Shown here: positions 21,261 through 60,769 of the stretch, piece by piece
Layout of the letters: every line of letters starts with the position of its first letter
How positions within the stretch are numbered: position 1 is the first letter of the stretch
Source of the DNA: Mucilaginibacter aquatilis
GTDB taxonomy: Bacteria > Bacteroidota > Bacteroidia > Sphingobacteriales > Sphingobacteriaceae
Assembly: GCF_009755275.1 (NCBI RefSeq)
Contig: NZ_WQLA01000001.1
Span: 558,001 to 622,000 of the forward strand
Direction: 5' to 3'
DNA length: 64,000 nucleotides
Position numbers and translations under genes: made by a program
Notes under the pieces: generated by a model
Seen by the model: only the letters and a program-made list of their open reading frames with translations
The model's database searches: none
Told to the model about the DNA's origin: nothing

Positions 21261-21341
21261 TAGTTAATGGTTAATAGATCATGGTTCATAGTAATGATTT
21301 GGCTTTTGCCCATGAACCATCAACTATGAACCATAAACTTA
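21261..21341. repeat. palindromic repeat in the rhaI-rhaEW spacer
   Basis: Imperfect inverted arms 21261-21289 and 21312-21341 are made of tggttcatag/atgaaccat units. It is related to the 16225-16309 element, including the gctttt-gc core between the arms. It fills nearly the whole 92-nt spacer inside the operon. Confidence 0.8.
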
Positions 21342-21345
21342 ATAT

Positions 21346-23466: not shown

Positions 23467-23500
23467 ATTAATTTTAATGTGTTTTACTTTTCTAAATAAA

Positions 23501-27424: not shown

Positions 27425-27425
27425 T

Positions 27426-32498: not shown

Positions 32499-32604
32499 TA
32501 TTTACAATTATGTTGTCGGTAGTCTTAAACTAGCGACATAATATCTCCAAATTTTCAAAAACCTCGGATAACGTTTACCAACTCAATAACTATTAATCCA
32601 ATCA

Positions 32605-32698
32605 GGGCGTTGCCTCCGGCCCGGGCTATCCGCTGCAAGTCCTCGTTTCGCTGTCGCTGCACTCCGGGCTTTACGCTACTATCCCTAACGCAAACTGC
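32605..32698 (-). repeat. 94-nt 3'-flank repeat, copy 1
   Basis: In the sense of the adjacent gene it reads gcagtttgcgttagggatag ... agcccggag ... cgaggacttgcagcgg ... gcaacgccc. It lies 26 nt beyond the stop of the GH106 gene. Copies 2 (36221-36308) and 3 (45962-46054) have the same orientation and the same position relative to their genes. End segments gcgtt/aacgc and inner gcccgg/ccgggc can pair. Confidence 0.8.
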
Positions 32699-32724
32699 AC
32701 CTGATTCGGCATGAGAGGCTTGCA

Positions 32725-36087: not shown

Positions 36088-36109
36088 GATTATTATTCTA
36101 TTAGCCACC

Positions 36110-36196
36110 TGTCATCTCGAACGATAGTGAGAGATCCTATTTGCATTGCAAGCTTATTAGCTTTTATAAGATTTCCCGTTATCACTCGAAATGACA
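36110..36196. repeat. tgtcat/atgaca palindromic repeat, copy 2
   Basis: The ends tgtcatctcgaacgat and cactcgaaatgaca are inverted; the centre includes gcattgcaagcttattagcttttataag. It lies in the spacer upstream of GH106, next to copy 2 of the 3'-flank repeat. Confidence 0.7.
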
Positions 36197-36220
36197 ACGC
36201 ATGTTTTTTTAACTAAATCC

Positions 36221-36308
36221 GGGCGTTTCCCTCCGGGCCGGGCTATTCGTTACAAGTCCTCGTTCCGCTATGCTTCACTCCGGGCTTTCCACGGCAATCC
36301 CTAACGCG
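36221..36308 (-). repeat. 3'-flank repeat, copy 2
   Basis: This is the most diverged copy of the three. It lies 14 nt beyond the stop of the GH2 gene, in the same orientation as copies 1 and 3. Confidence 0.78.
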
Positions 36309-36322
36309 GCCACGCTTCTGTA

Positions 36323-39300
36323 CTATTTACCACTCTTCACCTTACTCACCACACCACTTACATTAGCAGGCGTAGCTTTACAAGGCAACAAGGTGAAACC
36401 ATAGCTATACGGCTTAGCAGGTATCTGGTAAATATCCAGCGGTGCAGCCACGTCCGACCAACTGTCGTTGCCGCCCACGCCCATCTGTATCAAATCGATG
36501 TTAAGGGTTATGTAACCAGCGTCTTTTAACTTGTTGGTATGCTTGGCTCCTACAATGTTAGCTTCGGTGTACGGCCAGGCGCTCATGCTCAGCAGGCTAT
36601 CGGCTACTACCAACAAACCGTTTTGCTGCTTATCGCCTAAAAACATCCAGCGTACATCGGTGCGGTTACCGTTTTCCTGCGGTACGGCGTAAGGCTCCAT
36701 AAAATCGGTAATCGATTGGCCGTAAATCCCAGCCTCGAAACCGCTTCTACGGTCAATATAATTTTCTAACGGACCACGGCCGTAGTAACTAATATTATCG
36801 TAACTGCGTTTAATGCCGCCCTGCATACCCACCTTAGGCAGGTTTGGCAGGCCGCTTACTTTTGGTGCAAACTGGTAATCAACCTTAACCACACCTGTTG
36901 CGTTAACAGTATAGATCACGGTCACTGCAGCGCTATCGCCCACAACCGTATAGTTGCTGGTTACCGCCACCAATCCATTAGCCAGTTTATTGGCCTTCAC
37001 ATCTTTTAGTTTAGGAACTGATGTATACCACGGTTTGAGCTTTTTATTCGATTTCCAGCCACGAAGATCATTATCAGTAACCGGCCGGGTAAAGTGAGGC
37101 AGGAACGGAGCCGATATTTGCTCCTGATTATTGAATATGTATGAGCTTAAAGCGCCATTTTGCTTGTTGATGCTTACCTTAAAGCCTTTACCGCTCAGCG
37201 TGTAGGCATCGGTACCATCGTTTAACGTAAGAGCACCGTTAGCAGTTGCTGCTTTGGTTGGTACCAAACCTGTCAATGCAAATTGATCTGATGCTATCTC
37301 GTAACCCTTAGCTGCCCAAAGTTCATCTTTACTTAAGCCGAAATGAATATCGGCCAGATACTCATGTCCTGTTTTTAAAGATGGCAGGTATGATTTAATG
37401 CTAATGGTGGTATCTTTTCCGGCTGCAAGATTCATGGACGGCAGTACTTTACTCACCACTACTTTACCGTCTTCACGTATTTGTAACAAAATACTGAAAC
37501 CGGCTAAAGATTGTACAGCACTACGATTAGTGATTTTTACTAAGCCCTTGGCAGCATCTACTAACTCACTCACCACCGGTTGGAACACGTGCTTGCTCTC
37601 AAACATAGCCGCCTTAGGGCGACCATCCGAAGCTACTGTTCCTTTAATGGTAAAATTGTCAAAATACTTTTCGCCGTAATCGCCGCCGTAAGCAAAGAAT
37701 TCGGTTCCGTCATCATCTTTTTTTAGCAAGCCTTGATCTTTATATTCCCAAATAGCACCGCCAATTACGCGCGGTAATGAGCGCCATTGGTCCCAAAGGT
37801 TTTTCAAGTTACCGTTTGAATTACCCATGGCGTGTGAGTATTCCACAAAGAAGATCGGGCGGTTATCACCGTTCTTTTGGTTAACCAGCAAAGGCGCTGT
37901 ATATAAGGCCGGGTACATGCGGCTTACTATATCTACATACGGCTCATCAATAGGATTTTGCAAACGGTGCGAGTGATCGTTTGGTTTGAGGTAACGCGCA
38001 TCGGTTACATCAATATAGCCTTCGGCTTGCGGGGTACCTTGTGCAGGTTCGTAATGTACGGGGCGGGTAATATCAAAATCATGAATCCAGGCGGCCATGG
38101 CAGCATGGTTTGGTCCGCGACCGGCCTCATTGCCTAAGCTCCATATTACAATGCTCGGGTGGTTTTTATCGCGCATTACCATGCGGGTAGCACGGTCGAG
38201 GTAGCCGCTGGTCCAGGCAGGGTCGTTACTTAGTTTAGAGCCTAAACCATGGGTTTCAAGGTTGGCCTCGTCAATCACCAAAATACCGTACTGGTCGCAC
38301 AAATCATACAGATACGGGTCCATAGGATAATGGCTGGTACGGATACAATTGAAATTGAAACGCTTGATGGTGCGCACATCGTCCAAAATATCCTCGCGCG
38401 AAAGCGCCTTGCCTTTCACCGCATGATGGTCGGGGCGGTTGATGCCGTACAGATAAGTCACCTTGCCGTTAATGAGCAGCTTGCTGTTATCTTTTGCAAA
38501 CTCCACGCTACGGAAACCTACGCGGCAGCTTTTCACTTCTAATACCTTACCTGTACTGTCCTCTAACGACAGCGTAAGCGTATATAAGTTCGGTTGTTCG
38601 TCGCTCCATTTGGCCGGGTCGCTCACTTTTGCTTCCATCAGGCCAAACTTTACGTTATCTAAACGCGGGTAAATCTCGTTAATAATATCGTTAACGCTAC
38701 GTTGTAATGGCTTCTCAAAAACTGCTTTGCTGTTCTTATCAAATAATTGCGCTTTAAGCTGATAACCATTGATAGCTTTACCAGTGAGGTTTTCTATACG
38801 TGGGCGAATACTTAACAATGCGTCCTTATACTGCTTATCCAGCTTGGTTTGATAAAAGAAATCGGCAATGCGCAATTTAGGTTCGGCCAGTAGCATTACC
38901 TCGCGGTGGATGCCGCTTAAACGCCATTGATCCTGATCTTCGAGGAAAGAACCATCGCTCCAGCGGATGTTTTGTACCGACACAATGTTTTCACCTGCCT
39001 GTAAATAAGGCGTTATGTTAAATTCCGATGACAGGAAGCTATCCTCGCCATAACCCAAAAACTTGCCGTTTAACCACACCTTAAAGCCCGAACTTACGCC
39101 GCCAAAGTGCAGGGTAACATTCATATCTTTCCAATTGGCAGGCAGGGTAAATGTGCGCTGGTAACTACCTACGCCGTTCATATCATGCGGTACATAAGGC
39201 GGGTTAACCGGGCGGAACGGGTATACCGCGCTTTTATAAATAGGCTTACCATAACCCAGCATTTCCACGCTTGAAGGCACGCTTATTTTCTTCCAGCCGC

Positions 39301-39622
39301 TAACACGGCTTTTGTAAAAATCCTTAGGTGCATCGGCAGGTTTTTCAGCAAACGAAAAATCCCACTGACCATTGAGCAACAACATACGGCCCGATTTATC
39401 GCGCTCGCCTTTTAAAGCTTCGTTTATTGTGGCAAACGAATAAGCCGTAGCGCGCGAGGCATCGCGGTTAATGCCGCTTACCAACGGGTCTTCCCAGGGT
39501 TCGGTACTAAAAATAGCTGGTGCGTTGGGTACTGCAGCCGGTGTTTTATCAACCAGCTGTGCAAATAAACTGCCGGGCAATAAAACAGAAAATATGGTAT
39601 AGATGATTTGTTTCTTCATCAA
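36323..39622 (-). CDS. GH2 beta-galactosidase (LacZ-like)
   Basis: The 1099-residue secreted enzyme has a signal peptide (IIYTIFSVLLPGSLFAQ). The full LacZ domain order is present: jelly-roll sugar-binding domain (about 75-250), Ig-like domain (about 255-375), TIM barrel (about 378-690), a second Ig-like domain and the Bgal_small_N domain (about 830-1080). Acid/base Glu499 lies in WSLGNEAGRG and nucleophile Glu594 in FFVEYSHAMGNS. It should remove beta-galactosyl or a similar residue from the oligosaccharide. Its start codon directly abuts the stop of the upstream symporter gene. A second, shorter GH2 is at 52224-55013. Confidence 0.95.
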   Translation of the reverse strand: MMKKQIIYTIFSVLLPGSLFAQLVDKTPAAVPNAPAIFSTEPWEDPLVSGINRDASRATAYSFATINEALKGERDKSGRMLLLNGQWDFSFAEKPADAPKDFYKSRVSGWKKISVPSSVEMLGYGKPIYKSAVYPFRPVNPPYVPHDMNGVGSYQRTFTLPANWKDMNVTLHFGGVSSGFKVWLNGKFLGYGEDSFLSSEFNITPYLQAGENIVSVQNIRWSDGSFLEDQDQWRLSGIHREVMLLAEPKLRIADFFYQTKLDKQYKDALLSIRPRIENLTGKAINGYQLKAQLFDKNSKAVFEKPLQRSVNDIINEIYPRLDNVKFGLMEAKVSDPAKWSDEQPNLYTLTLSLEDSTGKVLEVKSCRVGFRSVEFAKDNSKLLINGKVTYLYGINRPDHHAVKGKALSREDILDDVRTIKRFNFNCIRTSHYPMDPYLYDLCDQYGILVIDEANLETHGLGSKLSNDPAWTSGYLDRATRMVMRDKNHPSIVIWSLGNEAGRGPNHAAMAAWIHDFDITRPVHYEPAQGTPQAEGYIDVTDARYLKPNDHSHRLQNPIDEPYVDIVSRMYPALYTAPLLVNQKNGDNRPIFFVEYSHAMGNSNGNLKNLWDQWRSLPRVIGGAIWEYKDQGLLKKDDDGTEFFAYGGDYGEKYFDNFTIKGTVASDGRPKAAMFESKHVFQPVVSELVDAAKGLVKITNRSAVQSLAGFSILLQIREDGKVVVSKVLPSMNLAAGKDTTISIKSYLPSLKTGHEYLADIHFGLSKDELWAAKGYEIASDQFALTGLVPTKAATANGALTLNDGTDAYTLSGKGFKVSINKQNGALSSYIFNNQEQISAPFLPHFTRPVTDNDLRGWKSNKKLKPWYTSVPKLKDVKANKLANGLVAVTSNYTVVGDSAAVTVIYTVNATGVVKVDYQFAPKVSGLPNLPKVGMQGGIKRSYDNISYYGRGPLENYIDRRSGFEAGIYGQSITDFMEPYAVPQENGNRTDVRWMFLGDKQQNGLLVVADSLLSMSAWPYTEANIVGAKHTNKLKDAGYITLNIDLIQMGVGGNDSWSDVAAPLDIYQIPAKPYSYGFTLLPCKATPANVSGVVSKVKSGK

Positions 39623-41218
39623 TTAATGTCCGTTAAAATATAAGTATAAGCCAATCATTACTACGGTTAACAGCACCCAAGCCATTTTAACTTTGGATGA
39701 TGTTTTCGGCGTGTTTTGTTCTTCGTCTTCGTCGGCTATGTACACTTTAGGATTACGATCAACCAGCGATACAACAATGGCAACCACCATTAGGAAAGCA
39801 AACGTGTAGAATGATAACAGCAAGTAATGCGGCCAAAAAGTATAAACATCTTTAGGGAAAACCCATAGATATAAAACGCCAACAGTAAGGCTGAATGCAG
39901 ACCCGGCAGAAAGGATGGTATTGACCGCTGTACGGGTAGTACGCTTCCAGAAAACAGTAAGCAAAAACACAACTGATAAAGGCGGCGCAATAAAGCCCAG
40001 TATCGACTGGAATACGTCGAAGAATTTTAATCCTTTAATGCTATCCAAAGCAATGGCTACCCCTACCGACAGGATACAACCCACGATGATTGACATGCGG
40101 CCAACGCTGATGAGTTGCTTGTTGGTAGCGTTTTTGTTGATACGCTCGGCATAAATATCCATTGTGAACACCGTACTTAACGAGTTAAGCGACGAGCCTA
40201 TGGTACCCACCAAAACGGCTATTAATACCACGATAACTAAACCGTTCAATCCTGCAGGGAACAAGTTGGTCACCATGGTCATGTAGGCCAGATTTTCGTC
40301 TTTTAAATCAGGGAAAATAACGCGGCAAAGTATACCGGTGAATATGAACAGCGGCAGCGAAAGAATTTTTAACCAGCCAATGAAATTAACACCAAGTTGC
40401 CCTTGCTCAAGATTACGGGCACCCAATACCGATTGCACCATAGATTGATCGGTACAAAAGAAGGCTACGGCAGCGACCGGATAACCCAGTAATATGGCAT
40501 GCCATGGATAAGCGGCATCAGTTGTTGGATGTAGTAAATTCCAGAAGCCTGACGGTGTTTGGCTAATTACGTTAGATAAGCCCCCTGCGCGTTGCAAACC
40601 CAAAACAGTAAGTAAAATAGATACGCCTATAAGCAATAACATCTGGAAAACATTCACCTTAGCAATAGCCGTTAAACCACCCATATAGGTAAACAAACCG
40701 GCAAAGGCCACCAACACAATAACCGACTCCCACATAGGGATGCCCAATATTTGCCTTACTAAAGTTCCGCCTGCATAAAGGCCAAGCGACAACCACGAGA
40801 TTTGAATTTTAATGAGCGCATACCAGGCCAAAATGGTACGGGTAGAATCGCCGTAGCGGTTACCCATAAACTCGGGCATGGTGTTTACTTTGGCAGCCAG
40901 GTAACGCGGTGCAAACACCAATGCCAGCAGCATTAAAAACACAAAGGCGTACCAATCAAAGTTTACGGCCACAATGCCCGTACTGAAGCCAACACCAGCA
41001 AAAGCCACCAGCATAGAGGGCCCAACGTTGGTACCCCACATGTTAAAGCCGATGCTTGACCAGCCCAATGATTTATCGCCAAGGAACAAGGTTCCTTCTT
41101 CATCGCCGCGCTTGCGGTTTTTAAAACTGGCCTGTATACCCAAAAACATCAGTACCCCCAAATAGGCGGCAACAATGGCATAATCGAGTAAGGTTAAATG
41201 TTGTACAATGTTTCCCAT
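39623..41218 (-). CDS. sodium:solute symporter (SSS/SLC5 family)
   Basis: The 531-residue membrane protein has about 13-14 helices. SSS features are GDKSLGWSSIGFNMWGTNVGPSM, APRYLAAKVNTMPEFMGNRYG and SSLNSLSTVFTMDIY. It imports a small organic solute, most likely a monosaccharide released by the locus, with sodium. It is embedded between Gfo/Idh (9 nt upstream) and GH2 (0 nt downstream), which ties the substrate to this pathway. As RhaT already covers rhamnose, a different sugar such as galactose, fucose, apiose or an acidic sugar is plausible (inference). Confidence 0.92.
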   Translation of the reverse strand: MGNIVQHLTLLDYAIVAAYLGVLMFLGIQASFKNRKRGDEEGTLFLGDKSLGWSSIGFNMWGTNVGPSMLVAFAGVGFSTGIVAVNFDWYAFVFLMLLALVFAPRYLAAKVNTMPEFMGNRYGDSTRTILAWYALIKIQISWLSLGLYAGGTLVRQILGIPMWESVIVLVAFAGLFTYMGGLTAIAKVNVFQMLLLIGVSILLTVLGLQRAGGLSNVISQTPSGFWNLLHPTTDAAYPWHAILLGYPVAAVAFFCTDQSMVQSVLGARNLEQGQLGVNFIGWLKILSLPLFIFTGILCRVIFPDLKDENLAYMTMVTNLFPAGLNGLVIVVLIAVLVGTIGSSLNSLSTVFTMDIYAERINKNATNKQLISVGRMSIIVGCILSVGVAIALDSIKGLKFFDVFQSILGFIAPPLSVVFLLTVFWKRTTRTAVNTILSAGSAFSLTVGVLYLWVFPKDVYTFWPHYLLLSFYTFAFLMVVAIVVSLVDRNPKVYIADEDEEQNTPKTSSKVKMAWVLLTVVMIGLYLYFNGH

Positions 41219-41227
41219 GCCGTAAGG

Positions 41228-42313
41228 TTAGGCTTTTAAAATATCGGGTGAAATGTTAAACTCGGCCAGTATATCGTTAATTTTTACCGGCATCCCGGTT
41301 TTAAGCGTGCGGTCCATTGCTTGTAATAATGCTACTGTTCCAACACCTTCTTTTACGTCGGGGTATGCAGTTTTGCCGTTTTCAAGGCAGTCGGCTACGT
41401 ACTCTAAGTAATTCTGATATTCGCCTGCGTGATGGCTTTGCCCTTCGAAACGGAAATAGTATTTTAAGGTTGAATCGCCCCAAACCACAATTTTTTCTTC
41501 ACCGGTTTTATCGGTAACAGCGTAGCGCAACTCATGGTAATCGGCTTGTGAAGCGCCACCGGTTCCGCGTAAAATAGTGCTCATACCGCTATCGCGCTGC
41601 GCAGGTTGGGTAGGACCTGTATAACAACCACTTACCCGGGCAATACGACCGTCGGTAGCCTTAAAGATGAAGTGCATGGTGTCCTCGTTTTTCAATCCGG
41701 CTTTTTGACCGTTAGCGCTGATCATCCCATAACCCATAACTTCTTCTACATTAGGTAAATACCAGCGTATAAAATCAACCGGGTGACTTAAACCACCATA
41801 CAGCCATTTAAATGCTTGCTCCAAAGCCCATGGTTTCTCTAAAAACCAGCGATGATCAGCATGGTATTGAGCTTCAATGGTAATTAAATCACCAATTAAA
41901 CCTTCTTCAAAATCTTTACGCTGACGTTTGGCCGGCTCAAAAAAGCGTGAGCTCTGGCCAATAAACACCTTTTTACCGGTTGATTCTGAAAGCTGGATAA
42001 GCTCTACAGCATCACTCAGATCATCAATAAAAGGTTTAGTGCAAATAACATGCTTACCCGCCGAAAGTGCCTGCTTTACGTGCGTAGCATGCAGGTGATC
42101 GGGGGTGTAAATGGCAATCAGGTCAATTTCGGGATTGTTTAGCATTTCATCATACTCGGTGGTATAGCTATGAAAGTTGAACTCCTCGGCACGCTTTTTA
42201 CACATATCGAGGTTGCGGTCGCATACCATGGTAAGTTCGCATTTTGAACTGTGCAACGCCGCCGACATGGTGCTGCGGCCTTCGCCCAAACCTAAAATTC
42301 CTATTTTCAGCAT
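41228..42313 (-). CDS. Gfo/Idh/MocA-family oxidoreductase
   Basis: The 361-residue protein begins with the Rossmann motif ILGLGEGRSTM (GxGxG). The family EKP-type motif appears as CTKPFIDDLSDAVEL near residue 95, with Thr replacing Glu. A C-terminal substrate domain includes LYGGLSHPVDFIRWYLPNVEEV. There is no signal peptide, so it is cytoplasmic. It would oxidise or reduce a sugar or sugar acid with NAD(P). It is in tight operon with the SSS symporter. The Glu-to-Thr change at the motif and the unknown substrate are worth noting. Confidence 0.9.
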   Translation of the reverse strand: MLKIGILGLGEGRSTMSAALHSSKCELTMVCDRNLDMCKKRAEEFNFHSYTTEYDEMLNNPEIDLIAIYTPDHLHATHVKQALSAGKHVICTKPFIDDLSDAVELIQLSESTGKKVFIGQSSRFFEPAKRQRKDFEEGLIGDLITIEAQYHADHRWFLEKPWALEQAFKWLYGGLSHPVDFIRWYLPNVEEVMGYGMISANGQKAGLKNEDTMHFIFKATDGRIARVSGCYTGPTQPAQRDSGMSTILRGTGGASQADYHELRYAVTDKTGEEKIVVWGDSTLKYYFRFEGQSHHAGEYQNYLEYVADCLENGKTAYPDVKEGVGTVALLQAMDRTLKTGMPVKINDILAEFNISPDILKA

Positions 42314-42364
42314 AATTATATATTCGTATTTCTTTATAAAACTTCAAATTCTTTACCTAAAACC

Positions 42365-44914
42365 TCATTTTCCTGTGGGTTGAAAGAACACCCAAACCTC
42401 GCCCGGTTTGGTGCCTTTTACACCCTCCTGGTACTGGCTCATGATCTTGTTCCAGTCGTTAACCCTTGGGTTGTTTTCGGTGGTTTTGGGGTTTAGCTTG
42501 TCAAGGTCTTCGCCTTTTGGTATGCTGATGATGAGCATAAGCTGGCGCCCATTCTTTAATATTACCAATTGCTGGAAGCTGGCGTTACAGAACCCTTTGC
42601 TTACCTCGGGCCACTTAGTAAATTGGGTGGCGTGGTAATTCAAATACTCTTGTTGTTTTTTCGTATCGGCAACCAGGTTTGTGCTCAATATCACGTTGTC
42701 CCACTCGGCAACAGTTTTGCCATCAGGACAATTATTTTTGCGGTTAAAGGTGTAAAACCTATCGGTATATAATTTCACCTCCGCTTTAGGAAACATTTCC
42801 TTCAACTTTTTTACCTGGCTTTCGGCGTTAGGTATGTATCCAAAAATCACCGTGCGGTTGGTCCACTGGTAAACGGCAGATTTTGGGATACCGTTACGGA
42901 TGCACAGGTCTTTCACCTGTTCTAAATCTACAGCTTTATCATCGGCATTTACTATTTCAATCACCTGCGGATTATCGGCAAAAGCATCATAACCTACATA
43001 ATTGATTGGCGATGTGGCTGTAGTTGATACGTTTTTGAACAGGTGCTTATAGTCATTCTGCAAACCAGCATTTTGCTTAATGCTGTTGCTTACCTGCGGG
43101 CCATTATTTTCCCACTTATTATCAGGTCCGTTTGCATTTTGCAGAAATTTATCAGCCGGAGTCCAGTTGTTTTTTACGGTGAAGCCTGATGAACCTTCAT
43201 CGCAATACAGGTAAAACCAGTGGTGAACATCGTGTGCGTACGGTACTTTGTAAACACTGTCTATATAGTTTTCTGAGATAACCGAACCAGGTTGCGCCGA
43301 AAGCGTATAAATGCCCGATACATCGTACAAGTGTTTACCGTACCGCGATATTTTGTTAGCGGTTATTTTGTTGCCGCTCATGGCGTTGTTGAGCTTGGTC
43401 CAGCCCCAGCCCATGCTGATGCCGCTGTATGATACTTCGCTGATGTCGTTATGCTCAATGCTGATGTTTTTTACATAGCCGGTGCCAATGCCTACACAGC
43501 CCCAATCCTCGTTGGTAACATCGGTAATGAGGTTGTTAATAATGCGCTCGTTGGTGCAAACCTCACGCTTATCATCAGGGTTGTAAGGCAGGTGTACTTC
43601 AAAGGCCTCGTCAGAAAAAGTGCCCACTTGTATTCCTGTTCCACCTATATCTTTAAAAAGATTGCCTTTAATCTCATTATCGTGCGTTCCGCGCTGGTAA
43701 TTAACTCCGGTTGATGCCATGTGCTCAAAACGGCAGCCCTCAAAACCGGTATGATGTGCATAAGCCACTTCCACCGCGGCAGCAGGGCGACCAACCCATG
43801 CCTGGTTTTCTAATCCTTTTTTCTCTGGAGTACCTGCAACCTTCAACTTGTAAGCATCGGTCATGTACATACCGGCCTGGTGCGGCACATGCCCTTGCTG
43901 CGATGGGCGTAACCAGGTAGCATGCTCAAAGGCTATACCTTTTACGTACACATAGCTCACGGGGCGGTCGGCGGTGCCGGTCATTTTTAGCAGCGTTTGC
44001 TGTGCGGGGGCAACCACCTTTGCGCTGGTTATGGTTTCGCCAGTGCGCGGCCAGTAGTATATTTTATTAGTTTTAGCATCGGCATACCACTCGCCCGGCT
44101 GGTTTAAGAACTCCAGGGCGTTGGTCAAATAAAAGGCCGAATTGCCATTCATCTTCTTATCCTTATCTATTACCGCCTGTGGCCAGGGGTGCTCAAACTG
44201 TATGCGGCTCTCGGGCTGTTGAAAGGTGACTTTGGCTTTATCACCTACTACAGTCAAAGTTTTAATACGCAAATTTGCTATGGCCCACATTTGGTGAATA
44301 AGCATTTCCATTTGGCCTATGGCACCTGTTTTAATTTTGGGTGCCGGTATCCACATTTCCTGCTTTACCTTATCAACCGACAAAATGCGGCTCATCAAAT
44401 TATCGTTATCCACCTCGCGGGCACGAACGGCTTTCTTTCCGTTCACCCATAACTGGCGGAACAACAATGCCTGCCCATCCAACGATGGTACATCGGCCAT
44501 CCAAACTTTACCTTGTGCAGAGGCAGGCAAACCGGCTACTTTGGCAACAGCTTTACGCCAGCCTTTAATATTAATACCACCGCTTAAAACAGGTTGCCCG
44601 TTAGCTGCAGCCTCAATCCAGGTTGGAGATGTAGCCGTTCCTGAATCTTCCGGACGAATAAATACCGGCTCGTTCAGCCTGTACTCACCACCGGCCATTA
44701 TGATACGAATACCGTTTTTAACGCTCTCATCATTCAATCTGCGTAATTCGCGTGCTTGTCTTAGGGCAGCGTTCAGCGTAGCTTTGGGGCTACCCTTGGT
44801 ACCATCATTGGCATCATTTCCTTTAGGCGACACATAAATATCAGCAGCACGCACGCCTGCCGATAGTGTTATTGTTAATAACAAAAGGAGTGTTTTACGT
44901 AGAGCTTTATTCAT
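42365..44914 (-). CDS. GH141-like beta-helix glycosidase fused to an L-rhamnose-mutarotase-type domain
   Basis: The 849-residue product is counted from the ATG at 44914 (MNKALRKTLLLLLTITLSAG, a good signal peptide). A longer frame starts 39 nt upstream. Residues about 23-640 are a right-handed parallel beta-helix of the GH141 type (DIYVSPKGNDANDGTKGSP, EYRLNEPVFIRPEDSG, HGVN/THDNEI turns, DVSGIYTLSAQPG). Residues about 742-849 resemble the L-rhamnose mutarotase family: Tyr757 and His761 in EYLNYHATQF align with the catalytic Tyr/His, then KWPEV. Residues about 655-730 look like a second, degenerate copy of that fold. GH141 includes an RG-II alpha-L-fucosidase. The fusion is described under findings. 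Confidence 0.88.
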   Translation of the reverse strand: MNKALRKTLLLLLTITLSAGVRAADIYVSPKGNDANDGTKGSPKATLNAALRQARELRRLNDESVKNGIRIIMAGGEYRLNEPVFIRPEDSGTATSPTWIEAAANGQPVLSGGINIKGWRKAVAKVAGLPASAQGKVWMADVPSLDGQALLFRQLWVNGKKAVRAREVDNDNLMSRILSVDKVKQEMWIPAPKIKTGAIGQMEMLIHQMWAIANLRIKTLTVVGDKAKVTFQQPESRIQFEHPWPQAVIDKDKKMNGNSAFYLTNALEFLNQPGEWYADAKTNKIYYWPRTGETITSAKVVAPAQQTLLKMTGTADRPVSYVYVKGIAFEHATWLRPSQQGHVPHQAGMYMTDAYKLKVAGTPEKKGLENQAWVGRPAAAVEVAYAHHTGFEGCRFEHMASTGVNYQRGTHDNEIKGNLFKDIGGTGIQVGTFSDEAFEVHLPYNPDDKREVCTNERIINNLITDVTNEDWGCVGIGTGYVKNISIEHNDISEVSYSGISMGWGWTKLNNAMSGNKITANKISRYGKHLYDVSGIYTLSAQPGSVISENYIDSVYKVPYAHDVHHWFYLYCDEGSSGFTVKNNWTPADKFLQNANGPDNKWENNGPQVSNSIKQNAGLQNDYKHLFKNVSTTATSPINYVGYDAFADNPQVIEIVNADDKAVDLEQVKDLCIRNGIPKSAVYQWTNRTVIFGYIPNAESQVKKLKEMFPKAEVKLYTDRFYTFNRKNNCPDGKTVAEWDNVILSTNLVADTKKQQEYLNYHATQFTKWPEVSKGFCNASFQQLVILKNGRQLMLIISIPKGEDLDKLNPKTTENNPRVNDWNKIMSQYQEGVKGTKPGEVWVFFQPTGK

Positions 44915-44947
44915 GTGTGTTTTTAATATATAGTTTATTCCCAACTC

Positions 44948-45007
44948 TGTCATTTCGAGGTACGAGAAACTCTTTGAAAGCGATTAGCTTGTTGGTTTGA
45001 GATGACA
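44948..45007. repeat. tgtcat/atgaca palindromic repeat, copy 3
   Basis: Inverted ends are tgtcatttcgag and gagatgaca; the centre reads gcgattagcttgttgg. It lies in the spacer between the TIM-barrel gene and the beta-helix gene. Confidence 0.7.
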
Positions 45008-45029
45008 AGAGTTGCTTATAGTAATTTAT

Positions 45030-45941
45030 CTATCCTTGAAAAATCGACTTTACATATGCCGTATTTGCCGTAAAGTTCCACTTTACGTTGCGCGGGTCTT
45101 TAACATCGCGTGAGCGTTCAATTACCAGCCACCCTTCCCACTTCATTTTATCTAGGGTTTTCTTCACCTTCTTCAAATCAACTTTCGGATCGTTTTGTAA
45201 CCAAAAACCGTCGGTATTGGTACAATGGATCTGGCAAATGCGGTTCTTACCTAAAATCTGCAACTCCTCGTTTACATCGCGGCCATTAGTCCAGGCGTTT
45301 GAGAAATTGAAATAGCTTTTAATTGCTTTTGAGCCTACCTCGTCCAGCAGTTTGGCCTCGTCGGTAGCATTTAATGATGATTCAATACCAATTACCACAC
45401 CTGCTTCCTCAGCTTTAGGAGCAATCATTTTCAGGCGCTCAATTACTGCAGGGCGTAGTTCGGGGTTCTTGGTCAGGTCGGCATTTACACCGAACGGCAA
45501 AAATGCCACCTTTACGTTCATAGCCCTCATGGTATCAATACAATCCTGCACCATGCGGTCTACCCCATCACGTGTGGCAAACGACTGGGCAAAAAATCCA
45601 GTCATTGCCATTGAGCATATCTCCAAGTTCAGCTCTTTGGCTTTATTCAAAAATTGTTGCCTTGTTTCAGGTTGAGCTAACTGGTTTTCAAAAGTCGGCC
45701 GGTTGCCTAATCCGCCCATGTCTACTTCTACCCCATCGGCGCCTATGTCTTTGGCTAACTGAAATGCACCCAATTTCTGACGCTTCAATATCATCAAATC
45801 AACTACTGCCACTTTATAACGACCGCCTTTAGCCGCACCTCCCAATAACGATGCACAACCGCTTTGCGACAGGGCCAATCCAGCGCCAAGCATTGATGTG
45901 TGGGCAATAAAGCCGCGACGTGTAGTTTTCATAGATTTCAT
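45030..45941 (-). CDS. Tat-exported sugar phosphate isomerase/epimerase-like TIM-barrel protein
   Basis: The 303-residue protein opens with a twin-arginine signal, TTRRGFIAHTSMLGAGLAL, followed by a lipobox-like QSGC, so a lipoprotein exported by Tat is likely. The rest is an AP-endonuclease-2-type TIM barrel with DGVEVDMGGLGN, Glu in VIGIESSLNATDEAK, His/Glu in QIHCTNTDGFW and the end WLVIERSRD. Periplasmic members of this group act on sugars without phosphate, including 3-keto sugars. Its placement next to a Gfo/Idh oxidoreductase and an SSS symporter suggests a shared substrate (inference). Confidence 0.88.
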   Translation of the reverse strand: MKSMKTTRRGFIAHTSMLGAGLALSQSGCASLLGGAAKGGRYKVAVVDLMILKRQKLGAFQLAKDIGADGVEVDMGGLGNRPTFENQLAQPETRQQFLNKAKELNLEICSMAMTGFFAQSFATRDGVDRMVQDCIDTMRAMNVKVAFLPFGVNADLTKNPELRPAVIERLKMIAPKAEEAGVVIGIESSLNATDEAKLLDEVGSKAIKSYFNFSNAWTNGRDVNEELQILGKNRICQIHCTNTDGFWLQNDPKVDLKKVKKTLDKMKWEGWLVIERSRDVKDPRNVKWNFTANTAYVKSIFQG

Positions 45942-45961
45942 GTTCTTTTATTCTTTTATTT

Positions 45962-46054
45962 GGGCGTTGCCTTCGCCCGGGCTATCCGCTGCAAGTCCTC
46001 GTTTCGCTATGGCTACACTCCGGGCTTTTCACTGCTATCCCTAACGCAAACTGC
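45962..46054 (-). repeat. 3'-flank repeat, copy 3
   Basis: It lies 8 nt beyond the stop of the STN-esterase gene. It is very close in sequence to copy 1 (32605-32698) and in the same orientation. Confidence 0.8.
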
Positions 46055-46062
46055 TATCAAAC

Positions 46063-47463
46063 TTACTTCTTCGCCGCTGCAAAAATCTTTTCCAACTCCG
46101 CAAAACCGTGTATCGCTTTGGCCGGCAATTTCTTGCCTTTTTCACCAAATACATACATAGCAGGGTATTTTTCAATCGTTACCTTGCTTTCGTCAACCTT
46201 ACCATCGGCACCTTTAACGGCAGCTATATTTAAATTAAATTGTTTAGCCACAAAATCATACATAGCCAGGCGTTTTGATTTGCCGTAGTCATGCCCCTCT
46301 TTAGGGAAATGAGCATTGGCAACCATTTCGGGCTTACCATAATAGCTGTATATTTTTTGAAGGTAAGGCAAATCGGTATCGGGCACATTGGCCGACCAGT
46401 CTCCACCATCCGAAATTACCAGTTGCGGGCGAGGTGCAGCCATAGCCGCCAACTCATCATTATTAGTACCGCCGCCGCACAAATGCACCGGCATACCGCT
46501 TTCGCATGGGCATCCGCCCGAAAAATAGCTCGACAACATTACCACCGGCACGCTTAGCTTAATGCGGTCATCAAGCGCGGTAATCAACATAGTTTGGCTG
46601 CCGCCACCCGATGCACCGGTAATAGCCACCCTGCTGGTATCAGCTTCTTTAAGCGACAAGAGGTAATCGAGTATACGCATACTGTTAAGCGCCTGTATAG
46701 TCATGGCTAAACTACGGCGATGGTCTTTGCCATCAAATTGCAGTAATGATTCGCCCCAGGCAAAAAGATCATAACTGATAGCCATAGCGCCCATTTTGGC
46801 CAGCATAGCGTAACGGTATTGCCCATCGGCACGGTAACGGCCATCTCCAAAATGCCCGTCGGGACAAAGCACTACGGGTATTTTGCCTTTAACTTTCAAC
46901 GGCTTGTATAACGATCCGCATACATACACGCCGGGTAAAGTTTCAATGGCAATGTTCTCAATAGTATAACCATCCATCACCCGCTTATTGGTAATAATGG
47001 GTTTTGATTTAGGCTTAACCGGCATAGGCGATAATTGCAGAGCCTCGTACATGCACGGGCGCAAATCCGCCTTGCGCTTTTCCCAACTGGTTTTATCCGT
47101 ATAAAACGACGACAGGTAGGCCAGTTTTTCTTTACCCTCCTCCGGCGTTAAGCGCGAATATTCGTAATATTTCAGCTTAAAGTTACCGGGCTTTTCCTCG
47201 TTTACCTTCATATCTAGCGGAGCTAGCATGGCAGCCAGTGTTTTGGCAGCAGTCGGCTTGTAACGCCAGTCGGCATATGGTACCCAGCGATCTTTAACCA
47301 TGTCTTCCGAATACTTAACCTTTACTTTGAATTTGGCTTCAACTTCGGCCAAAACCTGTTTCAGGGGTTTCTTGTATTCGTTATCGGAAGTGTTTTGGGC
47401 AAAGGCATCGCAGACCCCTAAAAGGAGCAGGATGATTAACCTTATTTTCTTGTTATTTAACAT
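46063..47463 (-). CDS. secreted alpha/beta-hydrolase esterase with N-terminal STN-like domain
   Basis: The 466-residue product is counted from the ATG at 47463 (MLNNKKIRLIILLLLGVCDA). A signal peptide precedes a 70-residue segment (KPLKQVLAEVEAKFKVKVKY ... LAAMLAPLDMKV) with the pattern of the STN domain of TonB receptors. The rest is an acetyl-xylan-esterase-type alpha/beta hydrolase. Nucleophile Ser lies in GASGGGSQ, an acidic region in ISDGGDW, and His in FPKEGHDYG. It would deacetylate or de-esterify the pectic substrate. STN fused to an esterase is unusual. Two paired Cys segments (GGCPCESG) occur near the active site. Confidence 0.85.
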   Translation of the reverse strand: MLNNKKIRLIILLLLGVCDAFAQNTSDNEYKKPLKQVLAEVEAKFKVKVKYSEDMVKDRWVPYADWRYKPTAAKTLAAMLAPLDMKVNEEKPGNFKLKYYEYSRLTPEEGKEKLAYLSSFYTDKTSWEKRKADLRPCMYEALQLSPMPVKPKSKPIITNKRVMDGYTIENIAIETLPGVYVCGSLYKPLKVKGKIPVVLCPDGHFGDGRYRADGQYRYAMLAKMGAMAISYDLFAWGESLLQFDGKDHRRSLAMTIQALNSMRILDYLLSLKEADTSRVAITGASGGGSQTMLITALDDRIKLSVPVVMLSSYFSGGCPCESGMPVHLCGGGTNNDELAAMAAPRPQLVISDGGDWSANVPDTDLPYLQKIYSYYGKPEMVANAHFPKEGHDYGKSKRLAMYDFVAKQFNLNIAAVKGADGKVDESKVTIEKYPAMYVFGEKGKKLPAKAIHGFAELEKIFAAAKK

Positions 47464-47476
47464 TTGTTTTTCAAAG

Positions 47477-47545
47477 AGAGGCACAAAGTATTGTGCCCCT
47501 ACAAATTCATTTTATAACCGTAGGGACACAATACTTTGTGTCTCT
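47477..47545. repeat. inverted repeat between the propeller and esterase genes
   Basis: The 26-bp arms 47477-47502 and 47520-47545 (agaggcacaaagtattgtgc... / ...cacaatactttgtgtctct) are almost perfect reverse complements. They lie in the 90-nt spacer inside the operon and would form a strong hairpin. Confidence 0.85.
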
Positions 47546-47553
47546 ATTTCATA

Positions 47554-48705
47554 TTATAAATCCTTCGATTCAGCCTTAATCTCCGGCAGTTTGTAACCTT
47601 TAACTTCAGGCCATTCGCCGTTTTTGATTTCTACCAATTTCAGCTTTTTAGGGTCGGCAACGGCATGTTTAATGCGTAACCGGCGCCAGGTATAAATGAA
47701 ATGAATCATACCATCTTTGGTTTGAATTACCGATGGGTAAGAATACTGGCTGATTGGCGAATCTTCTAAAATCAAAGCGGCATACCAGGTTTTTCCATCT
47801 TTTGACAGCGATACGTTTAACGGCGTACGCGGCCCTTTAGCCAGCTTACCCGGAGGCAACACGTGGTTATAAATCAGCAGTTGCCGGCCATCTTTCAAAG
47901 TTACCGCATCAGTACCCGAATTATTATTGGGCAGATTAGTTTTTTCGAGCGGAGTCCACGTCATACCCTGGTCGCTTGACCATGCAGTAAGCAACGCACG
48001 GTTGCGGCTGCGAGCCAATAACTGTAAGCGGCCATCTTTATGCTTTAAAATGCTTGGTTGTATACCTTCTAATGTATCAGGCCCTTTGGCTACCTCAATT
48101 TGCTTCCAGGTTTTACCCCAGTCGGCTGTTACTTCGAAATGAATTCTCCAGCCGCCTTTACCTTCTACACTAGTTGGGCAAAACAGGTTTTTACCTACTA
48201 ATACCGGTTTATTCTTGATTGGGCCTAAATAACCCTCGGGTAAAGCTTCTTGCGCTCCCCAAGTAACGCCGTTATCTTTCGAACGTTTTAGATAGCCCTT
48301 CCATGTTGACGGGCTTGGGCCTATCTTGTAAAATAGCAACAGTTCGCCGCCCGGAATTTGGTACAAAACAGGGTTCCACGTTGGGTATCGTAAGGTATCA
48401 TTTTGGATACCGTTGGCTACGTTGATGCCTTCGGTCCACTTACCATTTACATGGCGGCTTACCCAAATACATACATCGGGGTTACGTTCTTTAGTACCGC
48501 CAAACCACGCAGCTACTAAACCTTTGGGTGTTTCAACAATGGTTGACGAATGACACTCTTTATAAGGGGCTTTTTCGTAAACAAACTCATCGGTTACAAT
48601 GCCACTGCGCCAGGGGTTGCTTATGCTTTGCGCATTAGCACTCAACGTTGCAAATAGCAGTAACGCCGGAGCGCATCTTTTTATCAGGGAGGTAAACATC
48701 ATCAT
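47554..48705 (-). CDS. secreted BNR/Asp-box beta-propeller, sialidase-like
   Basis: The 383-residue protein has a signal peptide (PALLLFATLSANAQ) and four Asp-box motifs: SKDNGVTWG, TADWGKTW, SSDQGMTW and SKDGKTW. These mark a six-bladed propeller of the BNR_2 group. The family block CHSSTIVETPKGLVAAWFGG is at the start. Annotation as sialidase is by fold only. With no sialate genes nearby, a keto-deoxy acid or other acidic pectic sugar is more likely (inference). It is co-directional with DUF3826, 7 nt apart. Confidence 0.85.
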   Translation of the reverse strand: MMMFTSLIKRCAPALLLFATLSANAQSISNPWRSGIVTDEFVYEKAPYKECHSSTIVETPKGLVAAWFGGTKERNPDVCIWVSRHVNGKWTEGINVANGIQNDTLRYPTWNPVLYQIPGGELLLFYKIGPSPSTWKGYLKRSKDNGVTWGAQEALPEGYLGPIKNKPVLVGKNLFCPTSVEGKGGWRIHFEVTADWGKTWKQIEVAKGPDTLEGIQPSILKHKDGRLQLLARSRNRALLTAWSSDQGMTWTPLEKTNLPNNNSGTDAVTLKDGRQLLIYNHVLPPGKLAKGPRTPLNVSLSKDGKTWYAALILEDSPISQYSYPSVIQTKDGMIHFIYTWRRLRIKHAVADPKKLKLVEIKNGEWPEVKGYKLPEIKAESKDL

Positions 48706-48712
48706 TAATTTA

Positions 48713-49435
48713 TTAGTTAGCCGGTTTGCTTTCAGCGGCAGCTTTGGCAGCAGCCTTCTTAGCTTTCACGGCATCAGTGTAAGCCTTAAACATGTCATGC
48801 CAGTTGCGGCCGTGCGTGTTTAAATATTGCTCGTTCTTGGTTTTGTAAATCTCAAAAATGGCCGATATCTGAGTCATGTTCTTATAATCAACAGCTTGTT
48901 CACGGGCCTTCTTCAGGTTTGCGGTTAGCACTTTTTCTTCTTCGGGAGTAAGGTTTGGCACTATGGAACGATAACCATTCATGGTAAAGGCCACTTTGCC
49001 GATGGTATATTTATCCAGTATGGCTTCAACCTGTGCTTCATCTAAATTTTGGCGAAGGCCGGTCATCAACGTTTCATGTACTAATTTGGGCATGGCCGAT
49101 ATGGCTATTACCTGCCTATCAACCGCGCTTAGCGGGTTGCCCGTAGCCGGGTTAATTCCAGCAGGTACAGTTGCTGCCGGATGCTCATTGTTCCAATCGC
49201 GTATGGTTTTCAGGTGCGTAGCAATGATGCCCTTTACCGCTGTTTCTTTTGCAGGGTTGTTTAAATTAAGCGAAGCCACCCATTCGGCTGCGCGTTTATC
49301 GGTTTCCTCGTCAAATTTTGCTCTTGCTTCAGCCGTCATACCAGGCTTCGCCTCAGCAGTTTGTTGAGCATAAACATTTACAGTAAACAACGTTGCCGCT
49401 GCTATAATTACTGATGTTTTAATGTACTTCTTCAT
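48713..49435 (-). CDS. secreted DUF3826 protein
   Basis: The 240-residue protein has a signal peptide (YIKTSVIIAAATLFTVNVYAQ). A helical body of the DUF3826 type includes KRAAEWVASLNL, AVDRQVIAISAMPKLVHETLMTGL and TPEEEKVLTANLKKAREQA, and the tail is Lys/Ala-rich. The function is unknown; the family is typically found among pectin-degradation genes of Bacteroidota. It sits between GH78 and the propeller in the same operon. Confidence 0.88.
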   Translation of the reverse strand: MKKYIKTSVIIAAATLFTVNVYAQQTAEAKPGMTAEARAKFDEETDKRAAEWVASLNLNNPAKETAVKGIIATHLKTIRDWNNEHPAATVPAGINPATGNPLSAVDRQVIAISAMPKLVHETLMTGLRQNLDEAQVEAILDKYTIGKVAFTMNGYRSIVPNLTPEEEKVLTANLKKAREQAVDYKNMTQISAIFEIYKTKNEQYLNTHGRNWHDMFKAYTDAVKAKKAAAKAAAESKPAN

Positions 49436-49467
49436 ATATCGGTGTGTTTATATTGGTTCTTCTCTTC

Positions 49468-52221
49468 TTATAAATCCGATTTAAAGCTGTAATTGCCCGA
49501 GCCTGCTTCGTAAACCGCGTAGCCTTTATCCATTTTTACAAACTTTAAGCCTTCTGCTTCGGCAGCTTTTTTGCCACCCTCGGTAACCCCACCGGCCGAT
49601 TTTGCCGGAATGGAAATCAACGCCGTAGCATTAGCCGGTATGCTGATGTTCCAATCAAAGTTGCTTCCTTTTCTCCACTCGCTTTTTACCAAACCGTAAG
49701 GAGTTTTGTAAGATGATTTTACAAACTTCAATCCATCAGGCAGGGTTGGTTTCATAATTACCTGCTTAAAGCCGGGCTGGTTAATGCCCGCTTTAATACC
49801 AGCCAAATTTTGATAATACCAAACAATCAGGTCGCCAAGCAACATGACGTGGTTTCCCGAGTTCATGCTTGGGTTGGCAGTATCGCCATTCCAAAGTTCC
49901 CAAATGGTGGTAGCGCCACGCTCGGCCATATAACCCCAGCTTGGGTAATCTTTATTAGTGGCAATGCGGTAAGCCAAATCCGGACGACCATATTCGGTTA
50001 GTCCGCGCATTAACCATTGGGTACCTATTACACCAGTGGCAATGTGATTGTTATCAACGGTTGTCACACGTCTTACTATGTTTTCGAACACGGCTTTACG
50101 GTTAGCTACCGGAGTTATATCGAAGTACAGCGGTAGTAAGTTGGCTGTTACTGTACCATTATCATATTGCTGCGTTTGAGCATTATAAAACTTAGCGTTA
50201 AACGCATCGGCAATTTTGCCCTGCAAAGCCGAAAATTCTTTAGCATCATCCTGCTTTCCAAACATCTGCGCAAAGCGTTTCATTTGAAAAAGCATACGGT
50301 AATAGTATGCCGTAGCAATCAATTGCCCGTTGGTGGTACGGCTACTATCTTTAGCGTGTATCAGTTCAGGTGATTCGGGCGGAACGCACCAATCACCATA
50401 TTTGTCTTTAGTTACAATGTAGTCCTTCATGTACTTACCTTTCATGTAGGTAAGCCACTTTTTCATAGAGGCATAATGCTTTTCGGCCGGACGAGCATCG
50501 CCAAACTGTTTGTACAGCATATCGGCAATTAGTACATAGGTAGCAGGCCAGGTCATGTTATCGCTGTAATAATTCCAGTATGCCGGAGCCACATCCGGGA
50601 TGGCACCTTCAGCTGTTTGCGATTCTTCAATATCATCCAACCACTTGGTGTAAAGTTTTTGGTTATCAAAAATAAAGCTTTCGCCTAACGATCCGGTTGC
50701 CCTGTCGCCTAACCACGGCATACGCTCGTTACGTTGCGGACAATCAACCGGCATGCCTTTATAGTTTCCGGCTACACCCCACCAGGTATTGCGGTAAACG
50801 TTATTAATTACCTCGTTAGATGTTTCGAACTCACCAATGGTGGCCAACGCATCATACACCATCTCGCCTGTAAAATCACTTTCTTTAGGCTTGCCAGGAT
50901 AGCCGGTAATTTCAACATATCTAAAGCCGTGATACACAAATACCGGGTGCCATGTTTCTTCTGCTGCGCCTTTCAGGGTATATACATCGGTAACTTTGGC
51001 ATCGCGCAGGTTGGCAACATATAAGCTACCGTCTTTTTGCAGCGTTTCGGCAAAGCGCATGGTTACTTTATCGCCACGTTTGCCTTTTACCTTAATTTTT
51101 ATCCAGCCGGTCATGTTCTGCCCCATATCCATAATCCAGGTACCGGATTTAAGCTGGCTCAGTTTTTTTGGCTGAATGCTTTGCATTACCTTAATGGGTT
51201 CGCTCATTTGCGCAACCAGTTTGCCACCGGGTGCGTCAACCAGTTCGGGTTTAAACCACCTGGCAGCGTTATAGCCTACTTTACTCCAACCGGTTAACTC
51301 TTTATTGGCGTCGTATTCTTCACCATCATATTCGTTATTGCTGCGTATGGGGCCATCGGCGGTCATTTTCCAGGTTTGATCACTTACCACCAGTTGGTGA
51401 TGACCATCGGCGTACTCCAAATCCAGTTGCACCAGCATTTTAGGGAAACCAAACTCCTTTATCTTTTTAGGCTTATATTTAGGGCGCATGGTAAAATACC
51501 TGCCATTACCTAAAACTGCACCAATGGCGTTTTTGCCCGGCTTTACATCGGCAGTAACATCATAAGTGCTGTATTGTACCGATTTAGTATAATCGGTAGG
51601 CATTTGTGCCAACACCTCGTTGCCCACCTTTTTACCGTTAATGTATAATTCGAAATGGCCTGGGCCTGAAATATAGGCAGTAGCTCTTTTTACCTTCGCT
51701 GCTGATGAGAACTCCTTGCGGTAGTAGCGTGCCGATAAGCGCGAGAATTTAGACACACTATCCCAGGGCGAACCCTTTTCGTAGCCTATCCATTTGCCTT
51801 TCCAATCGGCAGGGGATAATAAACCTATGCTCCATTTGGCCGGTGTGCTCCATTGGCTGTCGCCGTTATTGGTGTACACTTTTACCTTCCAGTAGCAGGC
51901 AGTACCACTTTTAAGGGCTTTACCTTTGTAAGCTATCATTACCGACTCGTTAGAAGCCACTTTGCCCGAAGTCCAAAGATTGCCCTGGCCGGCGGCCAAC
52001 TTTGCAGGCGATGATGCCACTATAACCTCATAAGCCGTTTGCATAATATTGCGGCCGGTACCGGTTAACTGCCAGCTTAACCGCGGTTGTACTACATCAA
52101 TGCCTTGCGGATTTACCAGCATTTCGCAACGCAAGTTTTGCAGTTGAATATCGGCTGCAAATACATTTGCGCTGATAGACAAACCCAGTAAAACTGCTTT
52201 TATATGTTTAAGTAACTTCAT
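49468..52221 (-). CDS. GH78 alpha-L-rhamnosidase
   Basis: The 917-residue protein has a signal peptide (LLGLSISANVFA). The classic five-domain Bac_rhamnosid plan is present: N-terminal beta domains (about 25-460), with GPGHFELYINGKKVG for the carbohydrate-binding part, an (alpha/alpha)6 catalytic barrel (about 460-800) and a C-terminal beta domain. General acid Glu499 lies in DCPQRNERMPWLGD and a second acidic residue, Glu775, in TTIWELWNG. It removes alpha-linked rhamnose and complements the GH106 enzyme. The start of the next gene, GH2, is upstream with a 2-nt gap. Confidence 0.95.
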   Translation of the reverse strand: MKLLKHIKAVLLGLSISANVFAADIQLQNLRCEMLVNPQGIDVVQPRLSWQLTGTGRNIMQTAYEVIVASSPAKLAAGQGNLWTSGKVASNESVMIAYKGKALKSGTACYWKVKVYTNNGDSQWSTPAKWSIGLLSPADWKGKWIGYEKGSPWDSVSKFSRLSARYYRKEFSSAAKVKRATAYISGPGHFELYINGKKVGNEVLAQMPTDYTKSVQYSTYDVTADVKPGKNAIGAVLGNGRYFTMRPKYKPKKIKEFGFPKMLVQLDLEYADGHHQLVVSDQTWKMTADGPIRSNNEYDGEEYDANKELTGWSKVGYNAARWFKPELVDAPGGKLVAQMSEPIKVMQSIQPKKLSQLKSGTWIMDMGQNMTGWIKIKVKGKRGDKVTMRFAETLQKDGSLYVANLRDAKVTDVYTLKGAAEETWHPVFVYHGFRYVEITGYPGKPKESDFTGEMVYDALATIGEFETSNEVINNVYRNTWWGVAGNYKGMPVDCPQRNERMPWLGDRATGSLGESFIFDNQKLYTKWLDDIEESQTAEGAIPDVAPAYWNYYSDNMTWPATYVLIADMLYKQFGDARPAEKHYASMKKWLTYMKGKYMKDYIVTKDKYGDWCVPPESPELIHAKDSSRTTNGQLIATAYYYRMLFQMKRFAQMFGKQDDAKEFSALQGKIADAFNAKFYNAQTQQYDNGTVTANLLPLYFDITPVANRKAVFENIVRRVTTVDNNHIATGVIGTQWLMRGLTEYGRPDLAYRIATNKDYPSWGYMAERGATTIWELWNGDTANPSMNSGNHVMLLGDLIVWYYQNLAGIKAGINQPGFKQVIMKPTLPDGLKFVKSSYKTPYGLVKSEWRKGSNFDWNISIPANATALISIPAKSAGGVTEGGKKAAEAEGLKFVKMDKGYAVYEAGSGNYSFKSDL

Positions 52222-52223
52222 GG

Positions 52224-55013: not shown

Positions 55014-55024
55014 TAAAAACAATA

Positions 55025-58305: not shown

Positions 58306-58326
58306 AAAAACACAAAAGGGCCTGCA

Positions 58327-59250: not shown

Positions 59251-59327
59251 CCGGAACGACAGAGAGAAAACCCTAAGAGCCGGGCAGCTGATCGCTTTGA
59301 TAAGATCACTCGTTCCTCGGAATGACA
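59245..59327. repeat. tgtcat/atgaca palindromic repeat, copy 4
   Basis: Its ends are tgtcatccggaacgac and ctcggaatgaca. The minus-strand ATGACA end of the repeat is the start of the GH43 gene. The repeat is read in frame if translation starts further upstream. Confidence 0.7.
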
Positions 59328-59365
59328 GGGTGTTTATATTTTCTTCTATCATGAACATTTCCTTC

Positions 59366-60763: not shown

Positions 60764-60769
60764 AGTATT

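Follow-up and report, generated by a model that had tools for sequence, protein, structure and literature searches.

An exported, two-domain variant of the rhaM mutarotase family, either fused to a GH141 glycosidase or made together with one, is real and widespread. The fused form was analysed in a window of 64,000 nucleotides from Mucilaginibacter aquatilis (NZ_WQLA01000001.1, positions 558,001 to 622,000; the whole stretch of DNA under analysis). Its tail is read, with a probability of roughly 55%, as an extracytoplasmic anomerase of the L-fucose-mutarotase type that would serve the fucosyl product of rhamnogalacturonan-II cleavage. For the tail, the analysis shows that it belongs to the family, starts with an export-type N-terminus, is conserved, has the predicted fold and is linked to particular genes; that it is catalytic, on which substrate, and in what sequence the steps follow is inferred.

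The open frame at 42365-44953 on the minus strand encodes 862 residues when counted from the first ATG. Met14 is the likelier start (ATG at 44914), giving a gene at 42365-44914 and a protein of 849 residues with a signal-peptide-like N-terminus. The features of the gene and of its GH141 part are as follows.

42365..44914, minus strand: fused gene for an exported GH141 protein with a mutarotase-like tail, 849 residues from Met14 of the 862-residue frame
44846..44914, minus strand: signal-peptide-like N-terminus MNKALRKTLLLLLTITLSAGVRA, recognised by eye and by hydropathy (maximal 11-residue value 2.45)
43037..44851, minus strand: GH141 beta-helix catalytic region with the GH141_M insertion (Pfam; 5mqp match)
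43322..43324, minus strand: Asp544 (531 in the 849-residue numbering), counterpart of BT1002 Asp523 by alignment
43199..43201, minus strand: Asp585 (572 in the 849-residue numbering), counterpart of BT1002 Asp564 by alignment

Pfam assigned GH141_M (228.6 bits) and Beta_helix (36.1 bits) to this protein, while NCBIfam returned only a weak pectate-lyase match, far under its cut-off. Over the whole catalytic region the protein resembles BT_1002, the rhamnogalacturonan-II fucosidase of Bacteroides thetaiotaomicron (structure 5mqp), with E 3.3e-222 and an identity of 53-54%. The full-length predicted model (pLDDT 85.9) overlaid on 5mqp with TMt 0.94-0.95. Both catalytic Asp of BT1002, with the role of D523 given in the available part of PMC10154630, were kept in the alignment, provided that the paper's numbering differs from the chain index by 5 throughout. 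With the catalytic beta-helix and both catalytic Asp, the protein belongs to GH141. Judging from its identity to BT_1002 and from the locus around it, it would act on chain A of rhamnogalacturonan II. GH141 is not uniform in this respect, as other branches differ in activity, being xylanases or endo-fucanases (available part of PMC12786026).

The tail that follows the GH141 region comprises about 205 residues in two halves.

42719..42982, minus strand: N-terminal half of the tail, ferredoxin-like, poorly conserved and without a family sequence match (AlphaFold2, hhalign, identity)
42368..42718, minus strand: C-terminal half of the tail, fucose-mutarotase-like (rhaM, PF05336) domain (Pfam, AlphaFold2, Foldseek, VIA-align, hhalign, signature)
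42644..42646, minus strand: Tyr770 (757), kept in all four compared family groups
42632..42634, minus strand: His774 (761), kept in all four compared family groups

The C-terminal half scored 34.9 bits against the Pfam rhaM profile PF05336, above the cut-off of 23.4 (E 1.9e-8, residues 764-855 of 862), and 38.6 bits in the genome-wide profile search. In hhalign it matched single-domain family members with a probability of 98.9 and E 3.7e-17, and together with the Pfam score this rules out a chance similarity of motif. The sequence-only reading had described an exported GH141-like beta-helix with a mutarotase-type C-terminal domain, and this holds: Pfam found GH141_M, Beta_helix and rhaM behind a signal-peptide-like start, and Tyr757 and His761 lie where that reading had placed them.

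The AlphaFold2 model of the tail, built with 63 tails as input, reached pLDDT 94.3 and pTM 0.89 and consists of two tandem beta-alpha-beta-beta-alpha-beta units, both ferredoxin-like. In Foldseek, the L-fucose mutarotase 7byu was third by E-value (TMt 0.77) and had the top target coverage score among the matches listed. In VIA-align, 7byu was first (Z 12.0, 2.7 A, 104 residues), and two-domain barrels of monooxygenase and decarboxylase types were second, with Z about 10 over 170-180 residues and both halves. The L-rhamnose mutarotases 1x8d, 6hhn and 2qlw gave Z values of 9.9, 9.2 and 9.2, respectively. PDB sequence searches with the tail or a tail profile found no mutarotase; 7byu was reached solely from single-domain relatives. 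The tail is accordingly a rhaM/DUF718 family member by its Pfam score, its predicted ferredoxin-like mutarotase fold and its Tyr/His pair.

A segment of about 75 residues in front of the mutarotase domain had been taken for a degenerate copy of the same fold. The fold is borne out by the AlphaFold2 model, but the copy is not recognisable by sequence, since hhalign gave a probability of only 0.3 between the two halves, and 4.3 (no match) between the N-terminal half and single-domain members. The models thus support two halves that are alike in predicted fold, with no sequence similarity detectable by hhalign. Mutarotases of the rhaM/DUF718 family are usually homodimers. The predicted tandem arrangement suggests an internal pseudo-dimer.

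The type of mutarotase was approached by aligning 73 tail rows, among which 66 cores are distinct, with 42 Bacteroidota single-domain, 4 FucM-type and 14 RhaM-type sequences. Tyr757, His761, Trp768, Pro769 and Trp821 were common to all four groups (at least 95% of each), and Tyr757 and His761 occupied the same columns as Tyr18 and His22 of E. coli RhaM, which we take to be its catalytic pair. Gln829 and a GExW motif (838-841) were present in the tails, in the Bacteroidota single-domain clade and in FucM, and absent from RhaM; among the 73 tail rows, Gln829 was found in 100%, Glu839 in 96% and Trp841 in 100%. By this alignment the tail carries the FucM-type signature. RhaM-type features were not found in it: GExW stands in place of the NPDNSPVS-type segment, the C-terminal strand ends early, and where E. 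coli RhaM has Tyr41 and Trp77 the tail has Leu783 and Asn822. At these two positions FucM also has Tyr and Trp, and the Bacteroidota single-domain clade has Met and Glu. Since the tail differs where FucM and RhaM agree, its ligand may differ as well. The spacing of the motif is also its own, H-x6-W in the tail compared with H-x3-W in RhaM and FucM; single-domain members had H-x5-W (some Bacteroidota) or H-x3-W.

In comparison with solved structures, the C-terminal half shares with FucM of Acidovorax avenae (7byu/7byw, from the non-phosphorylating fucose pathway) the fold, the Tyr/His pair, the Gln and GExW. FucM, however, is a chain of 120 residues, whereas the tail is built of two domains, comes with an export-type start and departs from FucM at several family-conserved positions. 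With RhaM/YiiL/RhaU (1x8d, 2qlw, 6hhn) it shares the Pfam family, the fold (Z 9.2-9.9) and the Tyr18/His22 equivalents.

In an 82-row tree, the tails formed one clade (100/100) within the Bacteroidota single-domain side (98/93), apart from RhaM. FucM, the characterised L-fucose mutarotase, fell on the RhaM side of this tree and did not group with the tails, in a setting of few columns, a long tail branch (2.77 changes per column) and long branches meeting. Because of this, it is the fold, the signature and the neighbouring genes that support a designation as fucose type. The neighbours were examined at 19 single-domain Bacteroidota loci, chosen from genome matches rather than at random. Eighteen of them had in their vicinity a FucP-like carrier (roughly 40-45% identical to FucP of E. 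coli), a GH29 fucosidase or enzymes of the non-phosphorylating fucose pathway (genes of amidohydrolase, fumarylacetoacetate-hydrolase or SDR type); locus L046 had none of these. Fucose or rhamnose had both been proposed as the sugar undergoing anomer exchange. Predicted fold, aligned signature and the gene neighbourhood of the nearest clade favour the L-fucose type, and the rhamnose part of the proposal finds no such backing in the alignment.

The fused gene lies within a larger locus, and its neighbours are as follows.

41228..42313, minus strand: Gfo/Idh/MocA oxidoreductase, whose gene is linked to that of the tail (Pfam; neighbour counts)
39623..41218, minus strand: SGLT-type sodium:sugar symporter, next linked gene (Pfam; PDB match)
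45030..45941, minus strand: xylose-isomerase-like TIM barrel with an export-type N-terminus (by eye), upstream neighbour (Pfam)
30456..63943, minus strand: rhamnogalacturonan-II degradation locus (Pfam, NCBIfam)

The locus contains genes for an aceric acid hydrolase of GH127 (an NCBIfam equivalog over its cut-off), GH106, two GH2 and GH78 enzymes, a BT_1020-like protein, an apiosidase, esterase-like proteins and others. A 1057-residue DUF6298 protein (60770-63943) and a 785-residue DUF5703 protein (27384-29741) lie in or flank it. Beside it, at 16345-24583 of the window and about 18 kb from the fused gene, is a rhamnose-type catabolic set with RhaT, an FGGY kinase, a xylose-isomerase-like TIM barrel, a class II aldolase-SDR fusion, and LUD-domain and CCG-domain proteins.

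Among the best 80 of 273 relatives in the genome collection, the Gfo/Idh oxidoreductase was directly next to the tail in 71 loci, followed by the symporter in 66. In a phylum sample of 247 genomes, GH141 of the BT_1002 type (E <=1e-60) was found in 13 genomes. The tail occurred in 11, and exactly these 11 also had a close oxidoreductase (E <=1e-80); neither of the two tail-less GH141 genomes had the oxidoreductase. These counts are not independent, as the 11 tail genomes come from five genera only. The oxidoreductase was also carried by all 13 tail genomes of the same genus other than the window's own (60-genome set). Among 10 genomes hand-picked for unusual neighbourhoods, it was present in 7 (absent from those of L106, L083 and L117) and GH141 in 9 (absent from that of L095); in some of them the genes concerned lie scattered through the genome, an argument for a functional connection between them.

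The best solved relatives of the symporter were SGLT1, SGLT2 and vSGLT, so that sugar transport is likely. The best PDB match of the oxidoreductase was DgpA, presumably a glycoside-oxidising enzyme, at E 1e-18, which is too distant for naming its reaction.

Several loci departed from the common arrangement. The tail, oxidoreductase and symporter genes were together, with no GH141 beside them, in L089, L095 and L112, which belong to Pinibacter and a further member of the Chitinophagaceae; the set is preceded by two large genes (>1000 and about 662 residues) in L089 and L112. In L063 (Niastella) and L135 (Paludibacter) the tail gene stands apart from GH141 and oxidoreductase, both elsewhere in the genome, where in Niastella they adjoin each other. 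At the Larkinella/Spirosoma loci, a GH95 protein gene directly follows the fused gene (L083), or a gene of 847-970 residues follows the symporter (L075, L076, L078, L107 and L120).

For the C-terminal half, a reaction with the fucosyl product other than anomer exchange, such as isomerisation, lactone opening or elimination, is possible but unlikely. The superposition of monooxygenase- and decarboxylase-type structures on both halves would fit it, as would the linkage to the oxidoreductase in the phylum sample and an invariant set of the tail (Gln754, Gln764, Cys776, Gln781, Ser797, Thr811, Asn815 and Asn822), some of whose positions hold other residues that FucM and RhaM have in common. However, the residues common to all compared mutarotase groups, namely the Tyr/His pair, Trp768, Pro769 and Trp821, have been kept.

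Conservation was compared as mean pairwise identity among 40 fused proteins, yielding 61.5% for GH141, 35.4% for the N-terminal half and 70.4% for the C-terminal half of the tail. The C-terminal half was more alike than GH141 in 743 of 780 pairs, and the Tyr/His pair was kept in 63/63 tails. Both results are hard to square with a mere spacer.

Export was assessed with our own hydropathy measure on N-termini. Among the best 80 of 273 relatives, an export-type N-terminus was found in 58 of 59 complete fused proteins and in 20/20 separate tails, and a lipobox-like motif in 4/59 and 8/20, respectively. Among 59 single-domain family members, read from the first Met, only one (L148) had an export-type start.

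The same 80 relatives consisted of 60 fused and 20 separate exported proteins. A rare or one-off fusion is thereby ruled out, and the fusion noticed from the sequence alone extends over several Bacteroidota families. By their records these were Sphingobacteriaceae, Chitinophagaceae, Spirosomataceae, Cytophagaceae, Hymenobacteraceae, Flavobacteriaceae and one Paludibacteraceae; the closest tail relatives were Mucilaginibacter. One fused gene (L113) was on a contig labelled Williamsia sp. (Actinomycetes MAG) with typical Bacteroidota neighbours; the contig is probably mis-binned. The plasmid collection gave no match to the tail. The set of 60 genomes consisted of the window's own and those of 59 relatives, 36 from its genus. 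Fourteen of the 60 had the whole tail, fused in 4 including the window's and separate, as an open frame of 230-252 residues, in 10. A tree of 63 tails required at least five changes between the fused and separate states, two of them forced by well-supported branches. The separate exported tail is often right behind GH141 (best 80 of 273), and among nine such genes six overlap GH141 by 4 bases. In the phylum sample, the genomes G222 and G293 carry GH141 of the BT_1002 type, with open frames 693 and 617 residues long, and have neither the tail nor a close oxidoreductase.

A binding or dimerisation module, the alternative left open by the sequence-only reading, would be non-catalytic and hold GH141 to its substrate or a partner. 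This suits the N-terminal half better, which is poorly conserved and has no family sequence match, and it would agree with the crystallised BT_1002 chain, which ends at 624 residues without a tail (and may not be the full native protein), and with the two sampled genomes that carry GH141 without a tail. For the tail as a whole it is decidedly improbable, as the C-terminal half outconserves the catalytic domain, its Tyr/His pair is invariant, and the tail persists as a separate exported protein, with no GH141 among the two upstream genes in 6 of 20 such loci (best 80 of 273). An exported L-rhamnose mutarotase might be suggested by the name of the Pfam model, by the GH78 and GH106 rhamnosidases within the locus and by the genes some 18 kb from the fused gene for RhaT, an FGGY kinase, an isomerase-like protein and an aldolase-dehydrogenase. 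It is very improbable, since the fold, the signature and the tree all tend to disfavour RhaM and the genome has a RhaM-type mutarotase elsewhere (G000:C3, 47.6% to E. coli RhaM).

Under the anomerase reading, GH141, working outside the cytoplasm, would cut rhamnogalacturonan II in its chain A, and the product would end in a reducing L-fucose. The C-terminal half, via Tyr757 and His761, would then open and re-close the fucose ring and so speed up anomer exchange, with the N-terminal half standing in for the second subunit of the usual dimer. The adjacent SGLT-type symporter could import the right anomer or the open form, on which the adjacent Gfo/Idh oxidoreductase may act. NanM of E. coli, a beta-propeller protein that is not fused to the enzyme releasing its sugar, offers a comparison. 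According to the available part of PMC8141875, NanM is a periplasmic anomerase serving uptake by a transporter, a precedent for the extracytoplasmic anomer exchange proposed here, although its sugar, sialic acid, differs from that of the tail. As for the product, BT1002 is described as releasing 2-O-methyl-xylose-alpha-1,3-fucose (available part of PMC10154630), or L-fucose bearing 2-O-methyl-xylose at O-3 (available part of PMC12786026). In B. thetaiotaomicron the product would thus be 2-O-methyl-xylosyl-fucose, and because this fucose still carries its 2-O-methyl-xylose, the likely ligand of the tail is a reducing-end fucosyl product and not necessarily free fucose.

The 2-O-methyl-xylose-fucose disaccharide presumably contains, in part by our own deduction, the one rhamnogalacturonan II linkage that B. 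thetaiotaomicron leaves unbroken. The breakage of all linkages but one by this species is reported in the available part of PMC12282258. A more speculative extension, which we consider rather improbable, is that tail, Gfo/Idh oxidoreductase and SGLT-type symporter form a pathway for the 2-O-methyl-xylosyl-alpha-1,3-fucose left by GH141, one that the sampled GH141 genomes with no tail do not have. The tail would open or flip the reducing-end fucose, the symporter would import the disaccharide, and the oxidoreductase would ready the linkage for cleavage.

In the literature search, no paper among the matches listed named both 'rhamnose mutarotase' and 'GH141', no description of a GH141-mutarotase fusion was found in the titles and abstract starts searched, and the word 'mutarotase' is absent from the main text of the recent GH141 paper PMC12786026.

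The solved mutarotases of the rhaM family have one domain, and the single-domain genes compared here mostly had no export signals. In the form described here, found in several Bacteroidota families, two domains are exported, either attached to the glycosidase producing their would-be sugar end or encoded alongside it. If the tail is active, anomer exchange would be part of polysaccharide digestion itself. Its linkage to the oxidoreductase and the symporter provides a testable candidate for the use of the last piece of rhamnogalacturonan II, and the disaccharide pathway, if true, would be a route around the linkage that B. thetaiotaomicron reportedly leaves unbroken.
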